39,224 nt of DNA, taken from the NCBI GenBank assembly GCA_030038435.1, contig JASHOY010000033.1:1-39224 (forward strand). The letters are read 5' to 3'. Both the position numbers and the translations under genes were made by a program. The DNA is from Acidobacteriaceae bacterium (GTDB lineage: Bacteria > Acidobacteriota > Terriglobia > Terriglobales > Acidobacteriaceae). The notes below the pieces were generated by a model. The model saw only the letters and a list, made by a program, of their open reading frames with translations, did no database searches and was not told where the DNA came from. Positions 4,387-22,976 of this stretch are shown one piece after another (positions within the stretch are counted from its first letter, which is position 1; each line of letters begins with the position of its first letter).

Positions 4387-5688
4387 TCAGCAAATCCACC
4401 TGCGCAGCGAATCGATCAGCGTCTCCACCGGAGCAGGCTCACTTGCTTCCGGCCAGGCAAACTCCGGCGGCGCCACCAGGTAGGCTTCGGCTGCGCTCTC
4501 TGCAACACAGACGCACACCGTGGCCTGCCTGTACTCTTCATAACGGACTGCCGAAAGCCAGATGTAAGCCGCCAGGATCTCCGCGTCCACGGCGCTTCCC
4601 GGATTATCATCGACGGCGGGAAGCGGGTTGATCCGGTCGGGGTTCTCGAATACCGCTACGGCCGTAAATGGCTTGGGCTTGCTGCGCACGCTGAATCTGG
4701 CCGCCAGAAAGCGTGGACGCGCTCTGCGCAGAGCCTCAGACGCGGCCCACTCTACAAACGAATTCCCGAAGATCACGGCCCCGTTGCCGCTCAGGTAAAG
4801 CGCGCGAACAAACTCCCGCACCGCCGCGTCCGCAGCAACTTCCTTCGGGCACCACGGCGATACGTCCACCTTGCGCAAATGATCGTAGACCGAATCCGCA
4901 TTGGCAAGATTCTTGCTCATGCTGTTCATTTCGCGCAGAAAGTTCGTGCGGTAGGAGGCGAGTCTTGCGTGGCTCAGCAGAACGGCATGCGAAGTTGCGG
5001 CCGACCGCTTGTCAACAAGGCAGGCGTCCACCAGGCTGCTCGCTCCATCAATCGCCCACGATTCCGCTGCGGCTTCTTCGTCCGGGGCATCATGTGAATC
5101 CGGCGATCCGCCCCTTCTCGCGGCATCGCCAATCAACCCGACAAGCGCTCCTTGCCATGCGCTAGGCGCAGATATCGAAGGCAGCGGCTGCAATTTCACC
5201 CGCCGGCCCGCGCCGTGCCAATGTTCCCAGGCCTGCTGCGGCTGCACCGGAAGGAGCGCCGGTATATCCAGAACGATGGCGCGATTTGCCGCCTTGGCCC
5301 CCGCACCACCGCTTTGCACTGCATAGCGATCGGCGGCGTCGAAAACCCGCTGCACCGCCTCGCGCCATTGCTGAAAATACGGTGAGCGCGCCAGCTCCGA
5401 CGAGTTCTCGATCGTCTCCTCCTCTGTTGAGAACTGCTGCCAACCTCTGACGCCCATCTTGTCTTCAAGGCGGATCAGATCGCTGAACAGCGCGGCAGAT
5501 TCCTCGGCACTCAGGCTCTCTACGTAATAAACCAGCCTGTCCGTCGACCGCCTCTCGTTGGCGAACAGAAACTCCCACTCATGAAGCTGTTGATTGACAA
5601 AGGGAAGAAAGGTCAATGGAAGCCGTTTGAGTACACCGTGCCGCAGAGCCTCCTGCAGTCTTTCCGGCATTTGCTTTGACGCTTCCAT
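4387..5688 (-). CDS. Unrecognised ~430-residue protein, family B copy 2
   Basis: I do not recognise this family. It is clearly a paralog of the protein at 8271-7063. Shared blocks are an N-terminal stretch (LPLTFLPFVNQQLHEWEF here, LPLSFVPNLLREAIDYDY there) followed by a conserved AxERR/AERS and SLSAEE/SLSASE. A core from about residue 301 follows (GNG.VIF....F.EWA..EALRRA.P, then an R-rich strand), and a C-terminal block (D.E...AYIWL) with a strand ending VAPPEF/VSPSLP. No signal peptide, membrane segment or metal motif is visible, so it looks cytoplasmic unless it travels with a partner. It starts 34 bases after the Tat-exported phosphatase-like gene, with CGGAGAGA ahead of the ATG, and is probably co-transcribed with it. 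It is 31 residues longer than copy 1, mainly through an Ala/Gly/Asp-rich insertion in the middle. Confidence 0.8.
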   Translation of the reverse strand: MEASKQMPERLQEALRHGVLKRLPLTFLPFVNQQLHEWEFLFANERRSTDRLVYYVESLSAEESAALFSDLIRLEDKMGVRGWQQFSTEEETIENSSELARSPYFQQWREAVQRVFDAADRYAVQSGGAGAKAANRAIVLDIPALLPVQPQQAWEHWHGAGRRVKLQPLPSISAPSAWQGALVGLIGDAARRGGSPDSHDAPDEEAAAESWAIDGASSLVDACLVDKRSAATSHAVLLSHARLASYRTNFLREMNSMSKNLANADSVYDHLRKVDVSPWCPKEVAADAAVREFVRALYLSGNGAVIFGNSFVEWAASEALRRARPRFLAARFSVRSKPKPFTAVAVFENPDRINPLPAVDDNPGSAVDAEILAAYIWLSAVRYEEYRQATVCVCVAESAAEAYLVAPPEFAWPEASEPAPVETLIDSLRRWIC

Positions 5689-5722
5689 CCATTCTCTCCG
5701 GCGGGCTGGCCGCTCGGCGCCT

Positions 5723-6949
5723 TCAGCCGCGCAGCTCCCTCAGGCTTGCTCCTTGCGATTCCAGCGCCCGGCAGCCAAGCAAAGCAGCCAGCGTTGGGCA
5801 AAGATCAACCTGCCGGATCGGCCGCTCCACTATCGTGGCCTGGCCGACGCCCGCGCCCAATGCCATTGCCCAGGTATCACGCGTCGACTCCTCGTTGGCG
5901 CGATGATTGAAAAAGCCGTTGGTCGAAGAACCGTCCGGGTCGCGCCCGAATTCAGGCAACACCAGCAACGTGGTCTTTTTGCGATACTCGGGATTCGTCT
6001 CGATCTCCTGCCACAGCTCATAAACCAGCCGGTCCGCCGTGCCGATTCCCGCCAGATGCATCGCATAGGAGCCAAAGTGCGCCGCCTCAACGTCTGAGAA
6101 CACCGTAACCAGCAGGTTCGGCGCGAACTTGCGCATGATCTCGCGGGCCATGAAAAAGGTCAGTTCGTCGCCTGATGTCGGTCCCCCACCGTGAACAAAG
6201 CTGGAAATGGCCGTCTCGATCGTACTGCGCACCCGCGGATCAAGTTGGTCCGCCGCATCAAATACGTTCCATCCCAACCCCTCGTAGTTGCTCCCGGCCA
6301 TGGCCGTCTCCAGCTCCGCCTCCACTTTGTCGCGATCGGCCATGTTCCCGCTGCGTCCGTTGCGCAGCGCGTTCACAATCGCCTGCAGCATAAGCTGCTT
6401 GGGGAAAACCACATTCGCCCCGAACTCCGGCCCGTAGTGCGAAGCTGAGCTCGCGCCAATCTGGCTGGTGAGGGCTTTGTTACTGGCCACAACCCAGGTC
6501 TCTCCCGCGCTTGCGTGCTGCGCCCTGCGGTATTGCTCAAAGAGCGTGGGCGTTGTAGGTGCCTGGTTTCCCCAGTCGTCCACGCGCTGCCAGTTGCCCG
6601 TCAGGATGCTCGAAATGGCGTTGAAATGCGCCGTAACTCCCTCATTGCGCGCATGGAGATAGAGCAGCGAGTTCGGTCCCAGGTCCGAGACCAGATGCGG
6701 AATATACCGCAATCCTTCGGGCGAAAAACTCTCCGCGCGGCGAATGCCGCCGATGATCGCCATGACCACCTTTTGTCCCGATCCCGCAATTTCCCCGCTG
6801 CGCGCCCCGCGGGCTTCGGGAAGCATAGCTCCGGCAATCAGCAACCCGGCCGCGCTCAGGAATCTGCGCCGCGAAAGATCCGCATGCCGGCTATCGCCAT
6901 CCGGCACCCCTGCGCCCGGCTTATCATCGGCGCAATGGCCATTCTCCAT
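5723..6949 (-). CDS. Tat-exported alkaline-phosphatase-superfamily protein (DUF1501-like), family A copy 2
   Basis: A 408-residue protein with a twin-arginine signal (DLSRRRFLSAAG at about residues 25-36), so it should be periplasmic. The fold looks like the alkaline phosphatase/sulfatase superfamily, closest in style to DUF1501. Features seen are a first strand ending in IIGGIRRAESF, an SSILTG turn, a metal-type block SDVEAAHFGSY, and LPEFGRD followed by FFNHRANEE. The usual Asp after the first strand is Gly, and His occupies the position where sulfatases carry the Ser/Cys/Thr nucleophile, so hydrolase activity is doubtful. It is paralogous to the protein at 9473-8277. ATG 6949 is chosen because GAGGAGG lies 7 bases before it; GTG 6952 immediately upstream is less well spaced. 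It has its own promoter (7020-7048) and precedes the family B gene by 34 bases. Confidence 0.85.
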   Translation of the reverse strand: MENGHCADDKPGAGVPDGDSRHADLSRRRFLSAAGLLIAGAMLPEARGARSGEIAGSGQKVVMAIIGGIRRAESFSPEGLRYIPHLVSDLGPNSLLYLHARNEGVTAHFNAISSILTGNWQRVDDWGNQAPTTPTLFEQYRRAQHASAGETWVVASNKALTSQIGASSASHYGPEFGANVVFPKQLMLQAIVNALRNGRSGNMADRDKVEAELETAMAGSNYEGLGWNVFDAADQLDPRVRSTIETAISSFVHGGGPTSGDELTFFMAREIMRKFAPNLLVTVFSDVEAAHFGSYAMHLAGIGTADRLVYELWQEIETNPEYRKKTTLLVLPEFGRDPDGSSTNGFFNHRANEESTRDTWAMALGAGVGQATIVERPIRQVDLCPTLAALLGCRALESQGASLRELRG

Positions 6950-6959
6950 CACAACGCCT

Positions 6960-6981
6960 CCTCAGGGATAGCATCCCGAGG
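6960..6981 (-). promoter_or_regulatory. Hairpin overlapping the ribosome binding site of the family A copy 2 gene
   Basis: CCTC-A-GGGAT at 6960-6969 pairs with ATCCC-GAGG at 6973-6981. This gives nine base pairs with one bulged base and a three-base loop. In the transcript the last four stem bases are the first half of the Shine-Dalgarno GAGGAGG (6963-6957), so the site would be partly sequestered. Confidence 0.45.
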
Positions 6982-6998
6982 TTCAGCTACTGACAGAA

Positions 6999-7018
6999 AC
7001 TTCAGTTGAAATTGAAGT
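6999..7018. promoter_or_regulatory. Operator-like inverted repeat just downstream of the A2-B2 promoter
   Basis: ACTTCA at 6999-7004 and TGAAGT at 7013-7018 form a perfect 6-bp inverted repeat with an 8-base spacer. A second, overlapping symmetry TTCA-GT-TGAA lies at 7001-7010. The element sits at about +1 to +20 relative to the -10 box at 7025-7020, a typical place for a repressor. The cognate regulator is not in the window. Confidence 0.4.
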
Positions 7019-7019
7019 A

Positions 7020-7048
7020 ATTATATGCGGAGAATGAAGCCGGATCAA
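7020..7048 (-). promoter_or_regulatory. Sigma70-type promoter for the A2-B2 pair
   Basis: Read on the minus strand, TTGATC (7048-7043) is followed by exactly 17 bases and a perfect TATAAT (7025-7020). It lies in the 113-base gap between family B copy 1 and family A copy 2, so the second pair can be transcribed independently of the upstream genes. Confidence 0.6.
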
Positions 7049-7062
7049 TGCCCTTCCCGGTA

Positions 7063-8271
7063 TCAGCTCAGGGCAAGATCGAGAAGCTTCTCAAGACCCA
7101 CCGGCGATGCCGACTCCACCCCATGAGGCAGGCTGGGAGAGACCACTACCGCCTGTTGGTGATCTTCAAACCAGGCCACGAAGACCGATTGCGACGCCCC
7201 CGGCAGGCGCTGCTGATTGATCCAGTGGTAATAGGCGCCCATGTCAGCATCCATAAGCGACCCCATGAAATCAAGCTCCGGTTTCGTGTCCGTGTTCGCA
7301 AGCAGTTCGTTCATCGGCCGCAGGCGCTGGCGCGGAGCAAATCGCACCAGCAGTGTCAGCGGTTGCGCCCGCCGCAGCGCCTCGCGCCCCGCCCACTGGG
7401 CAAAGGTGGTGCTGAAGATCTGCGTCCCCGAGCCCTCGGTGAGGACTTTCAATTGAAAGCGCTCCAGCACCGGGTCGCCGCTTTTATCCATCCCAAGATC
7501 GGAAGGCTTTAACTCGGCAAGGTGGGTGCGCAATTCCTCCGGGCCCATCCCCGGACGCCGTATCTCCGCCTGCATGTTCTTGAGCAACGCCTCGCGCGCC
7601 CGGCCCAGAGCCTCATACGAGACGCACGTCAACAGAGGACTGTGTTCAGCCGCCCCACCCCCGTCCACATACCAGTGTCCGTAGGTCATGGGGTGCATTT
7701 TGGCGCGCGCGTCCACCGCGGCAAGAAGAAGCTGCAGGCCATTTCCCGGACTCACATTACTGAAAAATGTCCCATGCGCTCGCAGGTCGCGGAAGATTGG
7801 CTTATCGTACTCGGCTACCCCTTTACCAATGACCGCGATGCCCAGTCTTGGCGCCGGCGGCCGACCCGGCGGCGCCGCCGCCTGCAAGCGCGCGCCGTAG
7901 GCCAACGCGGCTTTGGTGAAGGCATCCTGTTGATGCGTGGTCCAAAGATAGGCGGATTCCTGCTCACCGAATCGCGACGGATGATTCACCCAATCCACGT
8001 GCTCTAGCTCTGACGATAAAGTGATCTGCGAGAAGCCATGAAACCAGTCGTCACGCTCAGAGGCCGAAAGCGAACTGAGGACCGCAAGTTCTTTGTCAAT
8101 TGCGGATCGCTCCGCCGGAAACATGTAATCGTAATCAATCGCTTCACGTAACAGGTTCGGAACAAAACTCAAGGGCAGCTCACGAATTGTGTCCAGGTGT
8201 GCAACGACCAACTGGCGAGCCTCGGGCGCATACCTGGAAAAATCTTCGGGTTTGAGGTGCGAAGGCTGCAT
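7063..8271 (-). CDS. Unrecognised ~400-residue protein, family B copy 1
   Basis: A 402-residue protein with no signal peptide, membrane segment or known domain that I recognise. It is the paralog of the gene at 5688-4387, sharing the N-terminal LPLSFVPNLLREAIDYDYMF block, the core beginning near residue 280 (GSGTQIF....FAQWAGREALRRAQ), and the C-terminal DADMGAYYHWI block. Further motifs seen only here are FFSNVSPGNGLQ and MTYGHWYVDGGG in the middle of the protein; copy 2 is diverged in this part. The ATG is five bases beyond the stop of the Tat-exported phosphatase-like gene, which implies translational coupling and a shared function. No strong Shine-Dalgarno precedes it, consistent with coupling. 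An enzymatic or adaptor role cannot be told from sequence. Confidence 0.82.
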   Translation of the reverse strand: MQPSHLKPEDFSRYAPEARQLVVAHLDTIRELPLSFVPNLLREAIDYDYMFPAERSAIDKELAVLSSLSASERDDWFHGFSQITLSSELEHVDWVNHPSRFGEQESAYLWTTHQQDAFTKAALAYGARLQAAAPPGRPPAPRLGIAVIGKGVAEYDKPIFRDLRAHGTFFSNVSPGNGLQLLLAAVDARAKMHPMTYGHWYVDGGGAAEHSPLLTCVSYEALGRAREALLKNMQAEIRRPGMGPEELRTHLAELKPSDLGMDKSGDPVLERFQLKVLTEGSGTQIFSTTFAQWAGREALRRAQPLTLLVRFAPRQRLRPMNELLANTDTKPELDFMGSLMDADMGAYYHWINQQRLPGASQSVFVAWFEDHQQAVVVSPSLPHGVESASPVGLEKLLDLALS

Positions 8272-8276
8272 GTGGC

Positions 8277-9473
8277 TTACAACAATTCCTTGATTTGCTT
8301 CCCCTGTGCAAGTTCTGGCGAAAAACCCATGATCGCTCCCAGCGTGGGAACCAAGTCTATGGATTGCATAGGCTGGTCATAGATCACTCCCTCGCGCACG
8401 CCTCTGCCCAGCGCCATCATCCAGGTTGTGCGGCTGGCGGCATCGCCGGTGCGATGATGCTGAAACCCGTTCCCACCGGCATCATAGTCCGCGTCGCGGC
8501 CAAAATCGGGAAGGATGAACACCGTTGTATTGTCCTTGTATTCCGGTTCGCTCTCCACCGCTTTCCATATCTCTCCGCACAGTCGGTCGGTGCGCCGGAT
8601 TCCCTCAATATAGAGCGAGTAGGCGCCGGAATGAGCAATGTCCATGTCATGCATAGTGATCCAAAGCAGGCTCGGCGCCTCTTGCTGCATGAGCCGCCTG
8701 GCTACGTAGACCGAAAGCTCATCGGGGCTGGAAAGCGTGCGCGCGTGCGCCATAAAATCATCCACCGAGAGGCGCAGAATCTGATCTAACTGCTGCAGTT
8801 CGAACTCACCACCTTCCAGCGTCGGCGTGTAGAGCGGATTCTCATAGTTGTCGAGCAGAAGATGATTGAGGTTGAGTCCCGAGCCTGCGGTTGCAGCCTG
8901 CAGCAGATGCTTGGGAAGGATGACCGTGGCGCCCATCCCGTAGGACCGGCAGTCGCTCTCGCCAATGCGATTGAATCCATTGCTCGGCGCAACCACCCAG
9001 GTGTCGGATGGCGGCCGCCGCAAATCCTGGCGAAAATACTCAAACACCGTCGGGTGGTCTGGCGGTACCGCGGCAAAATTGTTCAGCGTTTCGTAAACTC
9101 CGGTGGCCAAGCTCGCGGTGGCCACGTAATGGCCCAGGATTCCCTGATTGGTAACGTGGGTGAAGAAACTCGACTGCGGTGCAAGCTCGTTCAGAAGGTG
9201 GGGTATATTCTCCTGCCCCTGCGGCGCAAACGTCTCCTGGTCTCGCGCCCCGCCGCCAAACGTGATGACGATGATTTTGCGCTTCCGCCGCGGTTCATCG
9301 CCATACACAAACGGACTGGCGCCGCTGAGAGCCGAGCCGATAGCTGCGCCTGTCGCTCCGCGCAGAAACTCGCGCCTGCTCAAGCTGAGGCGCCGCGCCA
9401 CCTCGCGGGGACTCAAAGCCTCTTCTCCCGTACCGCCCGCCCGAACACTCGTAAAGGGAAGACTCTCACCCAT
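8277..9473 (-). CDS. Tat-exported alkaline-phosphatase-superfamily protein (DUF1501-like), family A copy 1
   Basis: About 398 residues from ATG 9473. This start places a clean twin-arginine signal (LSLSRREFLRGATG) about 30 residues in; the longer frame from 9620 would overlap the preceding TPR gene and is unlikely. Superfamily features are VITFGGGARDQETF after the first strand, GHYVATASLATG, HDMDIAHSGAY, LPDFGRD, and FQHHR. As in copy 2, the Asp expected after strand one is Gly, and His stands nine residues before the TG turn where a nucleophile normally lies. The remaining D/H residues could still bind metal. A binding or scaffold role, or unusual chemistry, is as likely as phosphatase or sulfatase activity. 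The following family B gene starts five bases after its stop. Confidence 0.85.
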   Translation of the reverse strand: MGESLPFTSVRAGGTGEEALSPREVARRLSLSRREFLRGATGAAIGSALSGASPFVYGDEPRRKRKIIVITFGGGARDQETFAPQGQENIPHLLNELAPQSSFFTHVTNQGILGHYVATASLATGVYETLNNFAAVPPDHPTVFEYFRQDLRRPPSDTWVVAPSNGFNRIGESDCRSYGMGATVILPKHLLQAATAGSGLNLNHLLLDNYENPLYTPTLEGGEFELQQLDQILRLSVDDFMAHARTLSSPDELSVYVARRLMQQEAPSLLWITMHDMDIAHSGAYSLYIEGIRRTDRLCGEIWKAVESEPEYKDNTTVFILPDFGRDADYDAGGNGFQHHRTGDAASRTTWMMALGRGVREGVIYDQPMQSIDLVPTLGAIMGFSPELAQGKQIKELL

Positions 9474-9554
9474 AACATCCGACTCGAATAGAGAAATAAC
9501 CTCTCGCACACACGACAGCCTCGGCGCCCCCGGAGATTCCTGTCTTATGACCCT

Positions 9555-9575
9555 CGCAGAGACGACCCCTCTGCG
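9555..9575 (-). terminator. Hairpin between the TPR gene and family A copy 1
   Basis: CGCAGAG (9555-9561) and CTCTGCG (9569-9575) form a perfect 7-bp stem with a 7-base loop, four bases after the TPR gene's stop on the minus strand. No T-run follows, so it may be a weak terminator or an mRNA-stabilising element within the operon, not a full stop. Confidence 0.35.
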
Positions 9576-9579
9576 CGCG

Positions 9580-10995
9580 TCACTGCTTGCCGGAATCCGG
9601 TCCCTTGGCCGAATACACAAATTGCTTCACTTCCGCCCGTTCTTTGTCGACCTCCGCCAGATGTTCGGCCCGCAGCTTCTGGTAGAATGCGAACTCCTGC
9701 TGCGCCTTCTCTCGTTGACCTAAGTGAACATAGTCCGTTCCCAGCCGGTAATGGGCGTCGGACAAATTCGGATTCAGCGCCAGCGCCCGCTCATACTCCG
9801 GTATCGATTCTTCATAATAGTGCTGATCCGCGTAAAGATCGCCCAGTTGCAGATGTGCCTCGGGAAGCCGATCGTCGAGCGAGATTGCCCTTTTCAGCAA
9901 AGATTCTACTAGTTGCAAATCAGGGTCCGATCCCTCCGAGCGCCGCCCCTTCCATAAACTCAACGCGTAATAATACTGTGCCTGCGCATTCCGGGGCTCG
10001 GCCTCGGAATATCGGCGAAACGCCTCAATTACCCCGTCCGCCTGGTTGGGAGAACTATTGTAGGCCTTGGAAAGAAAGTAGTAACAGCGCGGATCGCCTG
10101 GCATCAGCGCCACCGCCTTCAGCAGTGCCTTCACCGCCTCATCGAATCTGTCGCGCGAATAGAATGCCAGTCCCAGACCAATCTGCATGCGCGCTGAATT
10201 GGGATAACGCTCCACACCGGCCTCGAAAATGTTTATGGCCGGCTCGTAAGTTCTGTGCAGAAGCATTTCGCTTCCCCAATCGAACAGATTGTCTTCGGTC
10301 GGGTCAAGATGGGCAGCCGTCTCGTACTCGTTTGCCGCGTCCAGAAAATTTCCCTGCTTCTCCTCGATCTGCGCCAGCAGGTTGTGCAGCTCACCGGTGC
10401 TCTTCTCTTGGATTAACTCCTGCGCCACGTGCCGCGCTTCGTCCAGCCGCCCCAGCAAAAAATCGGCCATCGCAAGATCGTAGCCATTGTCATACTCATC
10501 CGGTTTCATCCGGAAGGCCGCTGCCAGCAGCGGCTGCGCCTCGGCAACATGGCCGGAGCTCGCGTAAAGCTCGCCAAGGTTACGGTTCGCGTCGTAGTTT
10601 TCCGGTTCCAGTTGCAGAGCTTTCCGGAATTGATCGACGGCCTGGGATGCTTTGCCCGTATGCAGCAGGATGGCGCCCAGATTGGTTCGCGCAGCCGCTG
10701 AATCCGGCTTCAGTTCAACAGCGAGCTGCAGTTGGTTCATGGCCTTGGCATTCTCTGACATCGCGGCATAGTCAAGTCCAAGCAGCTCGTGCACCTCGAA
10801 GTTCTTTGCGGCCTCGGGAAGAATCGCTTCCAGCCCCTGCGCCGCCTGCGCATATCGTCCCGCGTCGTAATTCTTCACTGCCGCCCGATAGGCGGCTTCG
10901 AACTTCTCGCTATTAGGACCCTGAGCGCAAAGAAGCGCACCACCGCCACCTGCGGCCAGCAACACCAACCAGCTCAGCCGAGGCCTCCTGCTCAC
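9580..10995 (-). CDS. Secreted TPR-repeat protein, copy 1
   Basis: About 471 residues from a GTG start at 10995. GGGAGG lies six bases upstream of this start, and it gives a normal Sec signal (SRRPRLSWLVLLAAGGGGALLCAQG). The longer frame from 11058 begins inside a hairpin and lacks a ribosome site. After cleavage near CAQG, the protein is almost entirely tetratricopeptide repeats (about 8-10 units), so it is probably a periplasmic protein-protein scaffold. It is a paralog of the protein at 22976-21315: both contain DP(T/S)EDN.F.WGSE(M/L)L.HR and YP(N/D)SARM, and both end in a charged helix finishing with VKQFV. It sits between the TonB receptor and the phosphatase-like/family B pair on the same strand, which suggests a joint transcript. 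Confidence 0.85.
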   Translation of the reverse strand: MSRRPRLSWLVLLAAGGGGALLCAQGPNSEKFEAAYRAAVKNYDAGRYAQAAQGLEAILPEAAKNFEVHELLGLDYAAMSENAKAMNQLQLAVELKPDSAAARTNLGAILLHTGKASQAVDQFRKALQLEPENYDANRNLGELYASSGHVAEAQPLLAAAFRMKPDEYDNGYDLAMADFLLGRLDEARHVAQELIQEKSTGELHNLLAQIEEKQGNFLDAANEYETAAHLDPTEDNLFDWGSEMLLHRTYEPAINIFEAGVERYPNSARMQIGLGLAFYSRDRFDEAVKALLKAVALMPGDPRCYYFLSKAYNSSPNQADGVIEAFRRYSEAEPRNAQAQYYYALSLWKGRRSEGSDPDLQLVESLLKRAISLDDRLPEAHLQLGDLYADQHYYEESIPEYERALALNPNLSDAHYRLGTDYVHLGQREKAQQEFAFYQKLRAEHLAEVDKERAEVKQFVYSAKGPDSGKQ

Positions 10996-11041
10996 CGCTT
11001 GCCTCCCGCTTCTTGGTTTGAGCAAAGCGCCCCCAAGTAGA

Positions 11042-11083
11042 ACACCCCAGCCAGGCACTTTGAAACGTGCCGTGCCGGGGTGT
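11042..11083 (-). terminator. Long imperfect hairpin between the TonB receptor and TPR genes
   Basis: ACACCCC (11042-11048) pairs with GGGGTGT (11077-11083), and GGCAC (11054-11058) pairs with GTGCC (11067-11071), with a partly paired middle and an 8-base loop. The hairpin lies in the 150-base gap after the receptor gene on the minus strand. No T-tract follows. It could be a partial terminator or processing site that lowers expression of the downstream genes. Confidence 0.45.
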
Positions 11084-11145: not shown

Positions 11146-14100
11146 CTAATAATTGAGCTTCAGTGCAAACTGGATCTGCCGGGGATTGAATGGATCGCCC
11201 CGAGTTGACCCGATTGCACCAAAGGCGCTGTTGGTGTAGTCAGTCGAACCGCCAACCGAGACCACGCCGTTTCCGCCGAAGCCGGGAGGATTGAAGTTCG
11301 GGTGGTTCAGGATGTTGTAGAACTCTGAGCGGAAGACAAGATTGAACCTTTCCGTCAACTGGAAAGCCTTGAATGCCGAGAAATCAAGACGATGGAATCC
11401 CGGTCCCGGAATCTGATCGCGTTTGTCACCCAGCGCCGCTGCGCCGGTCAGTGGAACGCAATTGGGAGCCGAGCCTGCAATGGGAGTAAGCGCTTCCGGC
11501 GTCCCTCCCAACTGGCAGGCTTGCGTAAAGGCAGACGGATTGCCGATCCAGAACGGGTATTTGGTGCCCCCGACGATCTTGGTCTTGATCCCGAGTTGCG
11601 GATCCTTACCGGGCAGGAGAATGGCGTCAGAGCCCAAGCCTGAGACCGTTCCGGAATGAGTGCCAAATCCCAGCGGTTGCCCACCCTGCAATGTCACAAT
11701 CCAATTGGTGGACCAGCCCCCCAAAACCTGGTTGGCAAATCCTCCATGGTTCATAAATTGCTTGCCTTTTCCGAAGGGCAAATCGTAGCCGCCGCTGAAG
11801 TGAAACACGTTGCGGAGATCGAAATCGGCCAACGAGTAGTCGAACTTCGGCCCCAGGCCCGGAACAGCGTAGGCGCGGAGCGTATCAGCAGCAGTGCCAT
11901 TCAGCAGGTCGCCGGCGTCAGTCATCGCCTTCGACCAGGTGTAAGTGAACAGGAAGACCAGGCCATTCGAGTATTGCTCCTGAAGCGTGGTCTGCAGGCC
12001 GTGATAGGAACTGGTGCCGTAAGTCGCCTGGTAGCTGCCGCCGCCAAAATCCGGGAAAGCATAACAGCTCAACTTCCCCGGTGCGGTTCCTACCGCGTAG
12101 TTCCCGTATGGGCACCCAGTGCCGGTAGTGATGCCGGCAGGCAGAAGCTCCGAGACATGTTGATAGCCCACGCCGCCCTGAAGATTAGTGTCATGGGTGT
12201 AAACGTACGCCGCTGTCAGCGCCAGCGTAGGCGTGACTGAGTACTGGAAGGTAAGGTTTGCGCTGTAGGTGCGGGGCGTCTGGTAATTGAACTGCAGACC
12301 CTGCAGCCCGAGGCCCTTGGCATTGACTACGCTGGGGCTGAAATTGATACAGGAGAAGCCCGATTCGATGGATGCAGTGCCGCCCGGACCGGCAGTCGAG
12401 CAACCGGCGAATGCGGTGTTGTAGCTGACCGGCGCGACCTGCGAAACGATTGAAGCATGCGGGTCGGAGGGATTGGCAACCACGCCATATCCGAAGTTGA
12501 ACACAAAAGGATAGTTCTCGCCGATGTTCGGTCCGTATCCCTGGTTCTCGAACGAGTTGTAGAACACGCCAAAGCCGCCGCGGCCCACCAGTTTCCGAGT
12601 GATCTGGTACTCCATGCCAAGGCGTGGGGCGAAATTCTCTCTTTGCGTCTGCAGCAGTCCTTGCCCGTACTTATCGGTCACGTCCAGAGTGATGCCATCT
12701 GCCGCCAGAAGATCGACCAGGCCATAGCATCCAGTTCCGGCGCAGGTGGAGTTTGTGGACAGCGTCCGATTGTCTTTCCCGCTGGCCGGAACGATAAACG
12801 TCGGATTGCCAATGCCCAGTTGCGGCAATGCGATGGGAACAAAGTTTGCCTGCCCACCGTTGGTCTCGTTGATTGGACCAAAGTAATCCCATCTAACACC
12901 TAGATTCACCGTCATCTTCGCGGTCATCTTCCAATCGTCTTGGAAGTAGACGGCAACGTACTTCTTCTCATCGTAAGTCTTGTTGATGTTGGATGCAGTA
13001 ACGCTGTTGGAGCCGCCGGAATAGCCGTAGCCATTGGGATTCGGATTCCCGTCCAGTGTGCCAGGCGCTGCAATCGGAGTCAGCAGGAACTGCGCCAAGC
13101 CGCCCGTCGTAGCCCCCTGGTTGGGAATATCCGTGTAAGTGCCGCTGTAGGCAAAGTCGCCATGCGAAGCCTCTGGTTGCAATGTCGAGAACTTCGCGTT
13201 CTGGAACTCGATGCCCATTTTGAAGCTGTGCCTGCCGTAAATCCGGGTGAAGTCATCGGTAACCTGGAGGGTCGCCGTGGCCTCATCGGAGGGCAGATAT
13301 TCGTTGCTGCCCAAGGTCTGCAAGTTGGTAATGGCGATGGCGGGCAGACCGCCGTTTTCCGGTCCGGCTGTAGGTGGCTGCGGGATGCCTTGAATCCCAT
13401 ATTGCGCTGGAATCCCTGACTGGGTAGCAACCGGTCCGTAGCGCGTGGTGTGCAGGTGGGCGAAACCCGCGCGCGCCTGGTTCACGACGTTGGGGCTGAA
13501 TACGTGCGTATACGCCGCCACCATCTGCGCCGATTTTGCGCTCTGCAGCCCCTGCTGGAAGGCGCCGCCGTCAGCTATACCCTTAAACGGCCCGGGAATG
13601 AATTGCGGGTCGTCGGAATAACTGAAGCGGGCGAACACCTGGTTGGAATCGTTGGGGTTGAAATCCTCGCGCGTATCGAATTGATTCTCGTGCTCGAACA
13701 GCGCCGGGCTGGTCTGGTAAGTGCCAAGGCCGGAATTCGGCGCGGGAAAAAGATCCAGGAGCTTGACCGCATTTTGATCGATGCGGCTGGCGGGAAGCAT
13801 GTTGAGATCCGGGCACGCGGCAATTGTAAAGTTCGCAGTTCCCGGTCCGCACACGCTGCTGAAAGGATCGCGCACATAGCCACTGGATCCGGAGTTGTTC
13901 GTCAATCCTGAAACCGGATCGACCGCCCCGGCAGCCACGTACCGCGTGGTTCCCGGGTCGAGAATGGTCGCATATTGAATGCTGCGGCCCAGGATGTCGG
14001 TTCTGGCGCCTCCGGTGTATTGCGTAAGAATGTCCTGCAGGTTTTGGAAGTTGCTGCTTCGCTCGTTGTTGGTCGGCACTGCAGCCGTAGCCGACGTGCC

Positions 14101-15078: not shown

Positions 15079-15183
15079 CCCAATACCCTCCAGCATGGTT
15101 ACACGTACTACTGTTTGGTCTTTCCCGAGGGTAGAAATACATTTTTAAGAACCCTTCCCGAGATTGCGCGGAGAGAGTTCCCC

Positions 15184-15197
15184 TGTAAACGGTTTCA
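15184..15197. promoter_or_regulatory. LacI-family-type operator
   Basis: TGTAAACGGTTTCA fits the LacI/GalR (cre-like) consensus TGNAANCGNTTNCA at every fixed position. The site lies downstream of the proposed -10 of the receptor promoter, where a bound repressor would block transcription. No LacI-family gene is in the window. Confidence 0.6.
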
Positions 15198-15541: not shown

Positions 15542-18500
15542 ATGTCGTCGCGCCGCATCGACGGAAGCCATTTGTCCACTCGCCGGGAGATTCTGAAGGG
15601 CATGGCGCTGTCGCCGATGGCCTTTGCTGCCTCATCACTCCTTGCATCACCGCTCCGGGCAGCTCCAGTGATTCTGGCTTCGCATCGGCAAGGCGGAGTT
15701 CCTTTTACCGATCTTCGCCTGACGCCCCACTATCCTGCCCAATCTCCGCTCGCCGATATCCTCGCTCTGGTAACTCCCGGTTCCGACCGTTACATCACCG
15801 AGAAATATGCCGATGAAATCGGTTCCGTGCTGAAGAAATGGAGCAATGCTCTCAGAGCGTCTTCGGCAGGGCTGAGTGTGCTTGCCGAATCGCTCGACGA
15901 CTCGCTCGAAGCATCCACGCTGACGCCGGCTTCAGAAACGGCGCTTCGCTCTTCCTATGGCATCCGCAGTGTCCGACGCCAGTTCGCGCTCGAGTTTGGG
16001 AGCGGCCGCGACCGCTTTATCGACAGCCTGCGGCGCTGGCTGGCAGGGCCCCTCCAGATCGAGACCGCAGAATTTGAAATCTTCGCCATCGAACAGATCG
16101 CCGAAACCCCACTCGCTGTGCGTGCCGATATCCGCTATGACATCGTTTCGACCCGCGGCGGTGAGCGCAAGGAAGAGCGGGTTGGCTCCTGGCGTACGGA
16201 ATGGATCGTCAGCGAATCCGGCGCCTGGAAGGCGCGTAAGTGGCAAGCGGACCAGGAGTCGATCGCCAGCGCGGAGGGTTCTGTCTTTGTCGACGTCACG
16301 GCCCAGGCCCTCGCTGGAACCGACTCCTACCACCAGCAACTTCTCCACGGGGCCGATTACTGGCGCACCGTGCTCGACGGCGCTATCGGCATGGACGTCT
16401 ATTGTAACAATGGCGTTGCCGTCGGCGACTTCGATAATGACGGCTTCGACGATTTCTATGTTTGCCAGCCCGCGGGCTTGCCCAACCGGCTATTTCATAA
16501 TCGGGGGGACGGCAGCTTCGAAGATGTAACCGAAAAAGCCGGCCTCGGCATTCTCGACAATACCGCCTGTGCGCTCTTTGCCGATTTCGAAAACAAAGGG
16601 CTCCAGGATCTCCTTGTCGTCTGCGGAACCGGGCCCCTTCTTTATTTGAACCAGGGAAACGGAAGCTTCCGTCTCAAGCGGGACGCATTCCGTTTTTCGC
16701 GCCAGCCGCAGGGCACGTTTACGCATGCCGCAATTGCTGACTACGATGGCGACGGCCGCCTCGACGTGTACTTCTGCATGTATATGTATTATCTCGGCCT
16801 CGAACAGTATCACTATCCCGTTCCCTATTACGACGCTCGCGACGGGCCGCCAAACTGCCTTTTTCACAACCAGGGCAACGGGACTTTCGTGGAGACGACT
16901 GAAGCCGCCGGCATGAACCGGGACAACGATCGCTACACTTTCTCCTGCGCCTGGGGCGACGCCTATGGCAACGGCTTGCCCGACTTGTTCGTGTCCAATG
17001 ACTTCGGAACTTCCCAGCTTTACCGCAACAACGGAGACGGCACGTTTGCGGTTGTTTCCGCTCAGGCGGGGGTAGAGGGAGTGGGCGCGGGCATGGCCTG
17101 CTGCTGGTGCGATTTCGACAACGATGGCCGCCAGGACATCTACGTCCCCAGCATGTGGGAGGCCGCCGGGCAAAGAGTCTCCGGACAAAAGCAGTTCCAC
17201 GCCGCGGCGCCGGAGCGCATCCGCGAACTCTACCGCCGCCACGCGCGTGGCAACGCGCTGTATCGGAACCGGGGAAACGGTACGTTCGAAAATGTCGGCC
17301 ATCAGGCTGGGGTCGAGATGGGCCGCTGGTCGTGGTCCGCGGACTTCTTCGACTTCGACCACGATGGCTATTCCGACCTCTACGTGTCGAACGGCTATCT
17401 CTCCGAGCCTGACAAATACGACCTGGCAAGTTTTTTCTGGAGACAGGTTGTAGCCAAGTCCCCGGAAGACGCAACGCCCGCTCCGGCCTACGAACGCGGC
17501 TGGAACGCCATCAACGAACTGGTGCGCTCGGACCGCACCTGGCACGGTTACGCGCGCAATGTCCTGTTTTCCAATAACCATGACGGCACTTTCAGTGAGA
17601 TATCCGGGCCCTCGGGCCTGGATTTCTTTGAGGACGGCCGCACCTTCGCCCTGGCCGATATCGACCACGACGGCCGCTTGGAAATCATCCTTAAGAACCG
17701 CAATGCCCCCCAACTGCGCATCCTGCACAACGTGATCCAGGAGATTGGCGATTCCATTTCCTTTCGCCTGCGCGGCACAAAGAGCAATCGCGACGCCATC
17801 GGCACGGCAGTTACCGTCGAAGCCGGTGCACTCCGCCAAACAAAATTTCTTCAGGCCGGATCGGGGTTCCTGGCTCAGCACTCCAAGGAACTGTTCTTCG
17901 GCCTCGGATCGACGGGCGGAAAGATTGGCGCCACCATTGAGTGGCCCAGCGGCCTCAAGCAGCGCTTTGACGATCTCCCCGCGAACCACCGCATACAGAT
18001 CGACGAGGGTTCAAGCCGATTTAATGCCGCGCGCTTTGCATCTTCGCCGGCGGGCTACGCTCATGCCGGACCGCAGCCCGCCCCGGAACAACTGCCTCAA
18101 ACCGTCGCAACCTGGCTCATCGAGCCCTTGAAATCGCCCGAGTTTTCTCTGCCCGATGCGGAACGAAATATCCGCGAACTCAGGTCGTACCAGGGGAGAT
18201 TTGTACTTCTGAACTTCTGGTCTGCCATGAGCGCCGAGTGCCTTGACCAGCTTCGCAGGTTGCAAATAGGGGATCCAGCGTTAACCGCGGCTTCGCTCGC
18301 AACGCTCGCCGTCAATGTAGATAACGCCGCGAATCTCTACGCAGCTCGTTCCCTCGCACAAAAGGAGCGCTTCTCTTTTCCCGTTCTTTTTGCGACTGCC
18401 GAGGTTGCGGGCATCTACAACATCATCTACCGCCACCTGTTCGACCGCCGCAGAGATCTCCCCCTTCCGGTGTCCTTCCTCCTCGATCGGAATGGCATGA

Positions 18501-19381
18501 TCGTCAAGGTCTATCAGGGTCCGGTCGTCGCCGATCTGCTGCTCGAAGATTTGCAGTCCATCCCTGCCGGCAGCGCCGAGCGCATGCGCAAAGCACTCCC
18601 TTTTAAAGGACAACTCGTGCAGGACGCCTTCCAGCGCAACGACTTTACTTACGGCGTCGCGATGTTCCAGCATGGATATCTCGATCAGGCTGCGACTTCG
18701 TTCCAGCAGGTCATCGCTACTCGACCCAACGATGCGGACGCCTATTACAACCTGGGCACGCTCAGGCTCGGGCAGCACGACTTCGCACAGGCTCGTCAAT
18801 ATCTCGAAGCAACTCTGCGCTTGAGGCCCGACTACCCCGAAGCCTGGAATAACCTCGGCATGATGGCCGCACAAATGGGCGATGCGGATGAGGCAATTCG
18901 CAGTTTTCAAAAATCGCTCGCTCTGCGTCCTCAATATGCAACCGCGCTGCTGAATCTCGGCAACGTCTACCGCCGGCAACAGGACTTTGCAAACGCGCAG
19001 CAATGCTTCAATCGCGCCCTCCGCCTTGAGCCAGACGACGCGGAAGTGAACTACAGCTTGGGAATGCTTTATGCGCAACAAGGCCAATTCCAACAAGCGG
19101 CGGCCTATCTTGAAAAAGCTATCGCCCTGCGTCCCGACTATGCTGAAGCGCTGAACAATCTCGGCGTTCTCTTTGTCCGCAATCAGGACTTTGCGCGGGC
19201 CGAGGAACAATTCAAAACCGGCATCCGCGTAGCCCCGCAATATGATCAGTCTTACCTCAACCTGGCGCGGCTCTACGCCATGCAGAATGACCGGCAAAGG
19301 GCGCGGGATGTTCTGCTCGAATTGCTGCGCGTGCAGCCTCAGGATGCGGCGGCAAAACAGGCTTTAGAGATGCTGCAATGA
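15542..19381 (+). CDS. Tat-exported FG-GAP/ASPIC-UnbV protein fused to thioredoxin-like and TPR domains
   Basis: 1279 residues. An N-terminal twin-arginine signal (TRREILKGMA) directs export. Residues about 60-260 are a region I do not recognise. From about 285 to 735 there are FG-GAP/VCBS propeller repeats with calcium-type DFDNDGFDDFYV and DYDGDGRLDVYF loops, each paired with an N.G(N/D)G(S/T)F motif. Residues about 738-815 match ASPIC/UnbV (RGTKSNRDAIG and WPSGLKQRF). A thioredoxin/TlpA-like domain follows (about 860-1020), but its active-site motif reads SAEC at 897-900, so the first cysteine is Ser. The C-terminal 240 residues hold about seven TPRs (YYNLGTLRLGQ, AWNNLGMMAAQMGD, YAEALNNLGVLF). 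It is probably a periplasmic or surface binding/scaffold protein. The next gene, 55 bases on, is a shorter ASPIC/UnbV paralog. The start lacks a strong ribosome site but is the only one that includes the Tat motif. Confidence 0.9.
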   Translation: MSSRRIDGSHLSTRREILKGMALSPMAFAASSLLASPLRAAPVILASHRQGGVPFTDLRLTPHYPAQSPLADILALVTPGSDRYITEKYADEIGSVLKKWSNALRASSAGLSVLAESLDDSLEASTLTPASETALRSSYGIRSVRRQFALEFGSGRDRFIDSLRRWLAGPLQIETAEFEIFAIEQIAETPLAVRADIRYDIVSTRGGERKEERVGSWRTEWIVSESGAWKARKWQADQESIASAEGSVFVDVTAQALAGTDSYHQQLLHGADYWRTVLDGAIGMDVYCNNGVAVGDFDNDGFDDFYVCQPAGLPNRLFHNRGDGSFEDVTEKAGLGILDNTACALFADFENKGLQDLLVVCGTGPLLYLNQGNGSFRLKRDAFRFSRQPQGTFTHAAIADYDGDGRLDVYFCMYMYYLGLEQYHYPVPYYDARDGPPNCLFHNQGNGTFVETTEAAGMNRDNDRYTFSCAWGDAYGNGLPDLFVSNDFGTSQLYRNNGDGTFAVVSAQAGVEGVGAGMACCWCDFDNDGRQDIYVPSMWEAAGQRVSGQKQFHAAAPERIRELYRRHARGNALYRNRGNGTFENVGHQAGVEMGRWSWSADFFDFDHDGYSDLYVSNGYLSEPDKYDLASFFWRQVVAKSPEDATPAPAYERGWNAINELVRSDRTWHGYARNVLFSNNHDGTFSEISGPSGLDFFEDGRTFALADIDHDGRLEIILKNRNAPQLRILHNVIQEIGDSISFRLRGTKSNRDAIGTAVTVEAGALRQTKFLQAGSGFLAQHSKELFFGLGSTGGKIGATIEWPSGLKQRFDDLPANHRIQIDEGSSRFNAARFASSPAGYAHAGPQPAPEQLPQTVATWLIEPLKSPEFSLPDAERNIRELRSYQGRFVLLNFWSAMSAECLDQLRRLQIGDPALTAASLATLAVNVDNAANLYAARSLAQKERFSFPVLFATAEVAGIYNIIYRHLFDRRRDLPLPVSFLLDRNGMIVKVYQGPVVADLLLEDLQSIPAGSAERMRKALPFKGQLVQDAFQRNDFTYGVAMFQHGYLDQAATSFQQVIATRPNDADAYYNLGTLRLGQHDFAQARQYLEATLRLRPDYPEAWNNLGMMAAQMGDADEAIRSFQKSLALRPQYATALLNLGNVYRRQQDFANAQQCFNRALRLEPDDAEVNYSLGMLYAQQGQFQQAAAYLEKAIALRPDYAEALNNLGVLFVRNQDFARAEEQFKTGIRVAPQYDQSYLNLARLYAMQNDRQRARDVLLELLRVQPQDAAAKQALEMLQ

Positions 19382-19436
19382 CATCATTCGCAGGAGCGCG
19401 GGCGGACGCCGGATACCTCTATAATGGGCCTATCCC

Positions 19437-21218
19437 ATGACACTGCCCCGCAGGCATTTCCTCGGCTCCTCGCTCGTCGCTTTGGGCGGTACTCTTCTCG
19501 ATGCCCTACTCACTCCCATCTGGAAATGGCGAAATCCGATCGTGGTGGAAGCGGCCACCGACACCACTGAAACCTCACCTGTGCAGTATTTCGACGTCGC
19601 TCAACAGGCCGGGCTGCGCATTCCCAATGTGTGGGGCGGAATCAAGCATAAGGTGCTGATCGTCGAAACCAAGGGGAGCGGCATCGCCTTTTTCGACTAC
19701 GACAACGATGGATGGCTCGACATCTACCTGACCAACGGCAGCCGGCTGAATGAGCATTGGCCTCCCGGCCAGGCCCCCACCACGCATCTCTACAAAAACA
19801 ATCGTGACGGCACCTTCACCGATGTCTCCGAGAAGTCGGGAATCGCGCGATCCGGCTGGCAGACCGGCGTCTGCGTGGGCGACTACGACAACGACGGCTG
19901 GGACGACTTGTTTTGCACCTTTTGGGGAAGAAACATCCTCTTCCATAACAATGGAGACGGCACCTTCACCGACGTAACCCGCAAGGCCGGCCTTTACCAG
20001 GAGAAAGGGCGCTGGGGAACCGGCTCCACTTTTCTCGATTATGACCGCGATGGCCATCTCGATCTCTTTGTCTGTAACTTCGTCAAGCTTGATCCCGACA
20101 AGCCTCCATCCCCTGACGACATGACCTTCTGCCAGTGGAAAGGCATTCCCACCATGTGCGGCCCGCGCGGCCTTCCCGGCGACACCAACCTGCTTTACCA
20201 CAACAACGGCGACGGCACCTTCACTGACGTAACCGAGCAAGCCGGCATTCTCAAGCCCGGCACGCGCTATTCCATCACCGCCGTCTCTTATGACTTCGAC
20301 AACGACGGCTGGCCCGACATCTACGTCGCCGTCGATTCCATGCCCAGCATCCTCTTCAGGAACAATCACAATGGCACCTTCACTGACGTTGCCGTCATGG
20401 CCGGCTGCGCCTATAACGATGATGGCCACGAACAGGCGGGCATGGGCATCGGCGTGGCTGATTACGATTGCGACGGATGGCTCGACATCTTCAAAACCAA
20501 TTTCGTCGACGACACCTGCGACCTCTACCACAACAACGGCGATGGCACCTTCTCCGAGGTCTCCTTCAGCTCCGGCATCGGCGTCAACAACCGCTACGTG
20601 GCCTGGGGTTGCGGATTCCTGGATTACGACAACGACGGATGGCCAGACATTATGCAGGTCAACGGACACGTTTATCCCGAAGTGGATAAATACAACATCG
20701 GCGAAAGATTCAAGAATCCCCGCATCGTCTATAAGAACCTGGGCAACGGCCATTTCCAGGATGTCTCAAAACAGATGGGACCAGGCATCAGCGCCCGCTA
20801 CTCAAGCCGCGGCGCCGCCTTTGGCGACTACGACAACGACGGCGGCATCGACGCCCTCATCAACAACATGAACGATCTTCCCTCCCTCCTCCACAATACC
20901 GGCGGCAATAAACAAAACTGGATCAAGATCAAGCTGCTCGGCACAAAATGCAACCGCACCGCCATCGGCGCGCGCGTGCGCGTTGTCATCGGCAAGCACG
21001 CGCAGATCGATGAAGTCCACAGCGGCGGCAGCGTCATGTCGCAAAGCGACCTGCGCCTTCATTTCGGACTGGGCCGCACGCAAACCGTCGACCTCATCGA
21101 GGTGAAGTGGCCAACCACACAGGCGGTCGAGCGCTTCACCGCCGTCAGGGCAAATCAGATTCTCACCATTCGCGAGGGCGCCGGAATCGTTTCCAATTTC
21201 ACGCCGCAGAAATCCTGA
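19437..21218 (+). CDS. Tat-exported CRTAC1-like FG-GAP/ASPIC-UnbV protein
   Basis: 593 residues with a twin-arginine signal (LPRRHFLGSSLVALGG). Residues about 50-490 are FG-GAP/VCBS repeats with at least six calcium-loop motifs of the form DYDNDGWLDIYL. They alternate with YKNNRDGTFTDV-type strands, as expected of a seven-bladed propeller. Residues about 494-585 form the ASPIC/UnbV domain (LLGTKCNRTAIGARV, then LRLHFGLG and VKWPTTQAVERF). This family is common in Acidobacteriota and Planctomycetes, and its function is not established. It lacks the thioredoxin-like and TPR extension of the upstream paralog. The 55-base gap and shared strand suggest co-transcription. TATAAT at 19420-19425 lies just before the gene but has no clear -35. 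Confidence 0.92.
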   Translation: MTLPRRHFLGSSLVALGGTLLDALLTPIWKWRNPIVVEAATDTTETSPVQYFDVAQQAGLRIPNVWGGIKHKVLIVETKGSGIAFFDYDNDGWLDIYLTNGSRLNEHWPPGQAPTTHLYKNNRDGTFTDVSEKSGIARSGWQTGVCVGDYDNDGWDDLFCTFWGRNILFHNNGDGTFTDVTRKAGLYQEKGRWGTGSTFLDYDRDGHLDLFVCNFVKLDPDKPPSPDDMTFCQWKGIPTMCGPRGLPGDTNLLYHNNGDGTFTDVTEQAGILKPGTRYSITAVSYDFDNDGWPDIYVAVDSMPSILFRNNHNGTFTDVAVMAGCAYNDDGHEQAGMGIGVADYDCDGWLDIFKTNFVDDTCDLYHNNGDGTFSEVSFSSGIGVNNRYVAWGCGFLDYDNDGWPDIMQVNGHVYPEVDKYNIGERFKNPRIVYKNLGNGHFQDVSKQMGPGISARYSSRGAAFGDYDNDGGIDALINNMNDLPSLLHNTGGNKQNWIKIKLLGTKCNRTAIGARVRVVIGKHAQIDEVHSGGSVMSQSDLRLHFGLGRTQTVDLIEVKWPTTQAVERFTAVRANQILTIREGAGIVSNFTPQKS

Positions 21219-21314
21219 GCCAGCCATACAGGAGCCAAATCCGCACTCCGGCCTCACATCGGCCGGCGCTTGAGCATCACCATCTCTGCTTGGACACAGG
21301 CGGCAAAGGCTCGC

Positions 21315-22976
21315 TTATTGCGCGGGCTGCTGCTTATCCGCCCGGCCGGGCAAAACCACCACAAACTGCTTCACCGCCAATCGCTGGCGCTGGATCTCCG
21401 CAGCCTGTTTCCTGGCGATCGCATCGTGCAGTTGAAATTGCTCCCGCGCCTTCGTCTTTTCCCCCGCGCGCTCGTATGCGACTCCCAGCCGATAGTGGGC
21501 TTCGCTCAGCTCCGGGTTGGCTTCTATCGCCTGCAGATAAAGACCAATGGCCTGTTCCCACTGCTTCTGCCCCGCGCTCAGGTTCCCAAGCTCGAAATAC
21601 CCATCCGCGCATTCAGGGTCGAGTGTTACTGCCCGGGTAAGCAGCGCTTTCACGCTCTCCATGATCCGCGGGTCCGCTTCCTGGCCCTGTTGCTTCCATA
21701 ACGCCATACCGTAGTAATAATTGGCCAGGGAATCTGCAGGCCTTAGCTTCTCGAATCGTTGCAGCTTCGCCACCACGCAAGGCAGCGGATCAGGCGCCGC
21801 AACCTCGATCTTCCCCATGAACAGGTAAGGCTCCGGATTCTCCGGGCTCAGATCCGATGCCCGGCACAGATCCAGCGCCGCCCTGTCGTACTCTGCGCCG
21901 GCAAACAGCGCCGCGCCACGCGCCGTCAGCATCCGCGCCGAATCCGGATAAAGCCTCACCCCTTCGTCAAACACCTCATTCGCCTGCCAGATGGCGCGAT
22001 GAATCAGCAATTCCGATCCCCAGGCAAAATAGTTGTCCTCACTCGGGTCCTCGCTGGCCGCCTCCTGAAACTCCCGCACCGCCGACAGCGGATCGCCCAG
22101 CTTCTCATCGAGTTCGCCCTCCATGCGGCGCAGCTCCGCGCTGGGACGCCGGGTCAGCATCCGTCGAACATGCTCGCGCGCCTGCGCATCGTCGCCCGCC
22201 ATTCTTAGCGCCTGCGCAAGATCGTATTCGTCGTCATAACTGGCGGGATCGGCCTCATACGCCCTCTGCAGCGGCAAAAGGGCTTCCTTGTACCTTCCCG
22301 CCTGAATATAGAACGCCCCCAGCCGGTAATTGGCCGCGAAGCCTTCGGGATCCTTCGCCGCCGCATCGCGCAATGCAGTCTCCGATTCCTCCCCCCTGCC
22401 CGCTCCGCCAGCCGCACCCGCCGCCGCAGCTTCCGCGCTGCCCGCTTTCAGGTCCACCGCCTGCCGCGTAAGCGCCTCGCTGGTCCTCAACATCGAATCC
22501 GAACCGTGCCCTCCCGCAGCCGTCCAGTCGGTCACCGCGGCAATGGCAAAATCGGGTTTGTCCGCAAACTGCATCGCCTGGCTGGCGTCGCCCGCCGCCG
22601 CTCCTTTCGGCTGCGCGCCGGCGTCGCCAAGCACCAGGCCCACCGGCGGCTGCTCGCCGCTCCCGGTCACGGTCACCGCAACTGGCGCGCTGCGCAACCT
22701 TCCCCGGCTTGCCGTCAATGTAAATGCTCCCCTCGCCACTCCAGGAAAGGCGAAGCGCCCTGCCGTGTCGGTGCTGACCGCTCGTGAAACCTCCAGGCTC
22801 TTTCCCTGCAGCACCACCTGCGCATCGGCCACCGCTCTCCCGGCAGCATCACGCACCACCCCGCGCAAAACGGCGCTCTGCGGCTGCTCTCCCCCCGCCG
22901 CCCGCGCCAACACCAGCGCCACCACCGCCAGGAGCAATAAAGGCTGGGCGCGCCGCAACACTTGTCTCACTGCCAT
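21315..22976 (-). CDS. Secreted TPR-repeat protein with carboxypeptidase-regulatory-like domain, copy 2
   Basis: About 553 residues from ATG 22976, which begins a good signal sequence (RRAQPLLLLAVVALVLARAA) and has AGGG eight bases upstream. ATG 23003 and 23087 are in frame but add an untypical N-terminus. Residues about 35-110 form a carboxypeptidase-regulatory-like beta-sandwich (VLRGVVRDAAGRAVADAQV), the same module type that heads the TonB receptors. A low-complexity Ala/Gly linker and about eight TPRs follow. The TPR part is paralogous to the protein at 10995-9580 (DPSEDNYFAWGSELLIHR, YPDSARM, C-terminal VKQFV). It is convergent with the ASPIC/UnbV pair and is probably a periplasmic scaffold of the same system. 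Confidence 0.83.
   Translation of the reverse strand: MAVRQVLRRAQPLLLLAVVALVLARAAGGEQPQSAVLRGVVRDAAGRAVADAQVVLQGKSLEVSRAVSTDTAGRFAFPGVARGAFTLTASRGRLRSAPVAVTVTGSGEQPPVGLVLGDAGAQPKGAAAGDASQAMQFADKPDFAIAAVTDWTAAGGHGSDSMLRTSEALTRQAVDLKAGSAEAAAAGAAGGAGRGEESETALRDAAAKDPEGFAANYRLGAFYIQAGRYKEALLPLQRAYEADPASYDDEYDLAQALRMAGDDAQAREHVRRMLTRRPSAELRRMEGELDEKLGDPLSAVREFQEAASEDPSEDNYFAWGSELLIHRAIWQANEVFDEGVRLYPDSARMLTARGAALFAGAEYDRAALDLCRASDLSPENPEPYLFMGKIEVAAPDPLPCVVAKLQRFEKLRPADSLANYYYGMALWKQQGQEADPRIMESVKALLTRAVTLDPECADGYFELGNLSAGQKQWEQAIGLYLQAIEANPELSEAHYRLGVAYERAGEKTKAREQFQLHDAIARKQAAEIQRQRLAVKQFVVVLPGRADKQQPAQ

Follow-up and report, generated by a model that had tools for sequence, protein, structure and literature searches.

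Sus loci combine an outer-membrane receptor carrying an N-terminal carboxypeptidase-like domain with exported binding-type proteins, glycoside hydrolases (GHs), and sugar-type regulation. In SusCD systems, control is exerted by SusR, hybrid two-component systems, or extracytoplasmic function (ECF) regulators. The locus described here stems from an Acidobacteriaceae bacterium and lies on contig JASHOY010000033.1 (GenBank assembly GCA_030038435.1; 512 contigs, 94.5% complete, 7.1% contamination), which was analyzed over its entire length of 39,224 nucleotides (nt), hereafter the window. Like the SusCD loci of Bacteroidota, it comprises a receptor with a CarboxypepD_reg domain, predicted exported binding-type proteins, GHs, and putative sugar-type regulation. 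Unlike them, it has no SusD match—instead, it contains FG-GAP/ASPIC proteins, TPR proteins, and a pair of adjoining proteins termed A and B—and in place of SusR, a hybrid two-component system, or an ECF regulator, a LacI-type operator-like site is found. The reading that we favor, and to which we give about an even chance, is that of a SusD-less glycan-acquisition locus of the Acidobacteriota in which B is exported on the twin-arginine translocation (Tat) signal of A.

The original prediction, made from the letters of the window, had described four protein types that each occur twice around one TonB receptor. This arrangement is borne out by two genes each for A, B, TPR, and FG-GAP/ASPIC proteins and by a single receptor-like barrel. 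Pairwise BLASTP relates A1 to A2 (34% over 394 amino acids, E 8e-75), TPR1 to TPR2 (36%, E 1e-68), and the ASPIC proteins P0007 and P0008 to each other (29%, E 1e-48), with the best piece for B1 and B2 reaching only 23% (E 2e-6). B1-type and B2-type relatives can be aligned along their length and have 19 invariant columns in common (21 sequences). The pairs are partly unequal in architecture: P0007 has an extra TlpA-like domain and a TPR array, and TPR2 has a CarboxypepD_reg domain in addition to what TPR1 shows.

The receptor belongs to the barrel family OMP_b-brl_4 (Pfam, E 2e-187), and CarboxypepD_reg is also matched. Its plug match scores 20.1 and is thus below the cut-off of 23.9, and no solved relative was found by sequence. 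SusD (PF07980, PF14322) has no match in the window's own genome, with a Bacteroides control genome being positive, and SusD families are absent from the matches listed for 20 window proteins. The same genome encodes about 65 receptors of the OMP_b-brl_4 family. Half of its ASPIC matches (8 of 16, two being the window's own) lie within 7 kb of such a receptor gene, where about two would be expected with an even spread. The original prediction had likened the locus in its logic to SusCD loci and had placed it without clear hydrolases. The likeness is strengthened by GH genes and the operator-like site at the locus itself, by sister loci that encode LacI and GH proteins, and by the lack of a SusD match in the genome; the hydrolase-free part is not supported, as a GH2 gene (1264–4263) is situated just outside the range then considered, and GH2-like genes follow A-B in 15 of 72 loci. 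The ASPIC proteins, which the original prediction put in the place of SusD, are candidates for such a role.

P0008 has a solved relative in cartilage acidic protein 1 (9etn; E 6e-21), and both ASPIC proteins have the combination of FG-GAP and ASPIC/UnbV domains in common with the CRTAC1 family. They differ from it in being bacterial and carrying Tat-like signals, and P0007 is moreover fused to a redoxin-like domain devoid of CXXC and to a TPR array. This motif is absent from the TlpA-like domain in all nine aligned sequences, the window's included, and a thiol-redox role for this domain was hence rejected. For Candidatus Solibacter usitatus, paralogue families of ASPIC/UnbV proteins and TonB receptors are listed in PMC3174227.

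By its synteny, the locus is one unit with clear edges. For its distribution, 247 genomes of the phylum were searched for A and B, the window's own included; in many of them scoring stopped after 6 or 7 candidates, and copies have possibly been missed. B is present in at least 21 of these genomes—at least 19 of the 26 of the same family and 2 of the 221 of other families. Among A copies above 370 bits, B adjoins in 24 of 24. Below this score, A fragments of 166 bits (G155, contig C4) adjoin B fragments, a 129-bit A-like gene occurs in a genome without a B match (G015), and a B fragment in G195 lacks an adjoining A. A scan of 84,980 species yielded 201 relatives of B, and the locus counts rest on the best 80 of these. 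By record title, 78 of the 80 are Acidobacteriota and one is a metagenome-assembled genome labeled Rhodanobacteraceae.

Across the Acidobacteriota, the recurring order is a gene for an ASPIC-redoxin-TPR protein divergent from a row of receptor, TPR, A, and B. Counted among the best 80 relatives where enough flank was available, A adjoins B in 79 of 79 loci, in 77 of them immediately ahead of it at a spacing of about −4 to 58 nt. The exceptions are L084, with A 497 nt upstream, and L080, with A downstream of B. A-B is preceded by a TPR gene in 63 of 72 loci and by a receptor gene in 63 of 66; 49 of 54 loci have the divergent ASPIC-redox-TPR gene. The edge was controlled by reading about 15 kb past TPR2 in eight relatives of the same family, two of which are near-identical. 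All eight have B, A, the receptor, TPR2, and the two ASPIC genes, and seven have TPR1, whereas the next seven annotated families of the window (MacB, propeller, DUF4252, CN-hydrolase, PAD, Imm50, and ADSL) occur in none of the eight. The proposal that these genes form one system thus gains from conserved synteny and clear edges—the genes behave as one locus. The homologues are not scattered, the neighborhood being conserved for both the receptor (63/66) and the A-B pair (79/79).

Carbohydrate-active enzymes are linked to the locus, as they are in SusCD-type loci, herein by GH2. In 15 of 72 loci, the last A-B gene is followed by a GH2-like gene that starts no more than 600 nt away, in 14 of them on the same strand, and the three neighbors that were tested with Pfam were all confirmed. 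Close relatives of the window's GH2 stand beside A-B in L074 (85%, truncated where its contig ends), L076 (80%), and L107 (64%). Other A-B copies have GH36 and GH30 (L056) or GH32 (L059) alongside. A diverged sister locus on contig C96 of the same genome (L072, L060) combines a LacI gene, receptor, TPR, ASPIC, an SSF symporter, GH35/DUF5597, and an A-B pair. It contains three operator-like sites, one perfect and two with one mismatch.

These sites follow the palindrome TGTAAMCGKTTACA, which we take to resemble the operators of LacI-family regulators. It is matched at 12 or more of 14 positions in 30 of 37 divergent regions, the window's included, against 0.4 in shuffles—a count that is partly circular because the consensus was built from words common in the same regions, and that set aside twelve further regions for length (11 longer, one unparsable). 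Where the receptor could be parsed (61 loci), 43 sites fall within the 46 kb before receptors versus 26 within the remaining 1,087 kb of these loci. The window's copy is the only match with at most two mismatches in 39 kb, where 0.06 would be expected. Independently of these counts, the genome's only perfect TGTAAMCGKTTACA is located on C96, between B of the third A-B pair of the genome and GH35. The exact site of the window recurs at positions 34,903–34,916 of contig C130 (L200), ahead of a receptor-TPR row that is followed by a GH5-like gene with a Pfam score just under the cut-off. Divergent from the C130 site is a gene for a protein in which a 3-keto-disaccharide hydrolase domain is fused to histidine-kinase domains. 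A genome-wide regulon is not claimed, with 13 one-mismatch sites found versus 10 in the control. A further word, GGTTGACA, occurs on either strand in 20 of 37 divergent regions, where any word in shuffles reached at most 6. It represents a conserved −35-like element, which in the window lies upstream of the operator-like site.

Both A and B are predicted to adopt an alkaline phosphatase (AlkP)-like fold of the phosphatase/sulfatase kind, B less firmly so. For A, the AlkP fold was found in the predicted structure, and its invariant residues, as read from the sequence alignment, include H164, D325, H330, D376, D378, and H389, which are candidates for the Asp/His metal-ligand set. A placement of H164 at the nucleophile position is not claimed. 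A2 scores 14.3 against DUF1501 (PF07394; cut-off 27) and 15.2 against Sulfatase (cut-off 25); A1 matches neither in Pfam. A is like DUF1501 proteins and the AlkP/sulfatase superfamily in its Tat signal, its predicted fold, and the motif [DE]FGR, which is common to A and the DUF1501 proteins of related genomes. It is unlike them in staying under both Pfam cut-offs and in lacking the sulfatase signature: the maturation motif C/S-x-P-x-R is present in 0 of 41 A sequences, and the reading of A as a sulfatase was rejected. True DUF1501 proteins occur in the same or related genomes (L155–L173 and others), and we know of no B-kind partner for DUF1501.

In models, B2 consists of a helical N-terminal part and an AlkP-like C-terminal domain. 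The N terminus of B is herein modeled as part of the fold, and its larger domain appears similar to the fold of A. In well-filled columns of 49 sequences, B has no histidine conserved at 90% or more and thus no conserved histidine metal ligands. No link between A and B was found at the sequence level. Searches for solved relatives by sequence gave none for P0002 and an unconvincing best match (E 0.15) for P0003; searches by profile gave none for B and only weak sulfatase matches for A (E 0.015).

The Tat motif [RK]R-x-[FLVAM]-[LMVFI] was called by motif search alone, without a signal-peptide predictor. It is present in 85 of 87 A genes (80 with strict RR; the two misses are truncated by contig ends), and the RR motif is found in none of 88 B genes. 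Hence, the Tat motif is restricted to A, and A and B are encoded together, as in Tat hitchhiker complexes, in which one partner carries the signal and a co-encoded partner has none. Examples include PaoABC (PMC4273604) and FAD-glucose dehydrogenase with its hitchhiker subunit (PMC6719666). These two are redox enzymes, whereas A and B are both predicted to be AlkP-like and the export of B is putative.

The doubling of the A-B pair is lineage-specific. A second pair, A1-B1, is present in the fetched flank of just 8 of 74 loci, arranged in tandem six times and inverted twice, and a B1 gene adjoins each of the eight A1 genes. Hence, the two-copy symmetry noted in the original prediction does not extend to the locus at large. 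When 61 A proteins are placed in a tree, the eight A1 sequences group together with a support of 99/98. L067 and L068, from two other families, and L066, from a genome of the same genus, fall on the A1 side. The two pairs are old, because the A1 group is joined on its side by relatives from other families, and a recent tandem duplication was rejected for the same reason. For B, the same split appears in a quick tree only, in which the B1 label has a support of 58.

Taken together, we infer a sugar substrate, repressor binding, the export of B, and any catalysis, from which the following course may be drawn. A sugar cue would release a LacI-family repressor from its operator between the divergent promoters, and transcription of both arms would follow. 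The OMP_b-brl_4 receptor would import an oligosaccharide. At the envelope, the exported FG-GAP/ASPIC and TPR proteins would bind and arrange both the substrate and the enzymes, and GH2 enzymes—encoded nearby or in the operon—would cut the product. A would fold with B, whose AlkP-like domain would have lost its metal ligands, in the cytoplasm, and the two would cross the inner membrane together by means of the Tat signal of A. Outside, A-B would target a charged portion of the glycan, which this AlkP-fold pair would either hydrolyze or bind.

Some observations limit this reading. The 11 longer divergent regions contain just two weak and distant operator matches, and the operator-like site is thus limited to part of the family, being essentially missing from these regions. 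Moreover, no receptor is visible around the A-B copies of L067 and L068, so that A-B is not bound to the receptor locus type. The same carbohydrate locus would also be compatible with a cytoplasmic B that is devoted to the folding or proofreading of the Tat substrate A, resembling redox enzyme maturation proteins (REMPs). We regard this as rather unlikely, even though B is without a Tat motif (0/88), is encoded about −4 to 58 nt behind A in 77 of 79 loci, and is closely paired with it (24/24 A copies above 370 bits), and B1 contains five cysteines. Known REMPs are small helical proteins that act as chaperones for other Tat enzymes; the larger domain of B, which in models resembles the fold of A, would fit a heterodimer better than a chaperone.

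The cargo itself might be a peptide, a metal chelate, or a phosphate ester instead of a glycan, the GH genes then being incidental neighbors. The predicted AlkP fold of A would suit phosphate esters, 57 of 72 loci have no GH2-like start within 600 nt of A-B, and the roughly 65 OMP_b-brl_4 receptors of the genome imply that substrates may be diverse. However, the LacI-type operator-like sites, the LacI gene at the sister locus, and the adjoining of GH2, GH30, GH32, GH35, and GH36 to A-B copies of different lineages speak for a sugar, and we regard a non-glycan cargo as rather unlikely, too. Less probable still is a function in envelope assembly or surface display, such as the modification of envelope glycans, with the barrel being a secretion or adhesion porin rather than a TonB-dependent importer. 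It would account for the plug match under the cut-off, and FG-GAP/ASPIC proteins are adhesion-like, with 9etn as the solved relative in this case. The catabolic regulator signature and the hydrolases are at odds with such a role, as is the lack of a B match in 7 of 26 genomes of the same family, because of which the locus is not essential. The features of the locus are collected in Table 1.

Table 1. Features of the locus and its GH2 neighbor in the window
Feature	Coordinates	Strand	Basis or remark
GH2 glycoside hydrolase (beta-galactosidase-like; DUF4982, Glyco_hydro2_C5)	1264..4263	+	Pfam; neighbor, convergent with B1
B1, unnamed protein without Tat motif, paralogue of B2	4387..5688	-	No Pfam/NCBIfam match
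A1, Tat-signal protein (SRRRFL), paralogue of A2	5723..6952	-	Separate old clade
B2, N-terminal helical part and C-terminal AlkP-like domain (predicted) without conserved His	7063..8271	-	
A2, Tat-signal AlkP-fold protein (fold predicted)	8277..9620	-	Better start near 9473 by eye
TPR1, TPR protein, signal-like N terminus (by eye)	9580..11058	-	
Receptor: CarboxypepD_reg, weak plug, OMP_b-brl_4 barrel	11146..15096	-	Pfam
LacI-type operator-like palindrome between the divergent genes, about 88 nt ahead of the receptor gene	15184..15197		
P0007: Tat-like signal, FG-GAP propeller, ASPIC/UnbV, TlpA-like domain, TPR array	15542..19381	+	
P0008: Tat-like signal, FG-GAP and ASPIC/UnbV protein, CRTAC1-like	19437..21218	+	
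TPR2: signal-like N terminus, CarboxypepD_reg, TPR	21315..23087	-	

For TPR2, the start codon at 22976, at which the original prediction had ended the locus, is better by eye in view of the signal-like stretch after it. Neither RNA families nor tRNAs were found in the window, and scans for sigma-70 promoters and terminators gave no more matches than in shuffles. A good promoter-like match, TTGATC-17-TATAAT, is situated at 7020–7048 (minus strand) between B2 and A1, with the overall total of such matches being that of chance; because of its position, A1-B1 may have a promoter of its own. Beyond the locus, a carbon-nitrogen hydrolase and a peptidyl-arginine/agmatine deiminase are encoded at 29127–31318, presumably a route from agmatine to putrescine. 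An Imm50-family immunity-like protein follows at 32574–33098, next to which no toxin partner was noticed, no toxin search having been made. A second OMP_b-brl_4 receptor at 35768–39223 runs past the contig end and has a 51% relative in the flank of one relative of the locus (L180).

No description of the locus was found in the titles and abstract beginnings searched in the open-access literature, which is weak evidence of absence. It is conceivable, if on balance doubtful, that the Acidobacteriota possess a SusD-independent machine for glycan import—composed of the receptor, FG-GAP/ASPIC and TPR proteins, and an A-B heterodimer with an AlkP fold in both subunits—in which B is a metal-less, signal-less pseudo-enzyme carried through the Tat pathway by A and acting as specificity or binding subunit. 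The phylum is abundant in soils, as stated in the abstract of PMC3174227. In a genome with about 65 OMP_b-brl_4 receptors and no SusD match, the ASPIC, TPR, and A-B proteins are candidate substrate-binding partners. These candidates can be tested in cultured relatives, for example, Edaphobacter, Granulicella, and Terriglobus, the locus being conserved in Edaphobacter lichenicola and Terriglobus albidus. If the proposed export holds true, A-B would represent an unusual instance in which a pseudo-enzyme is exported by its folded partner and relative.

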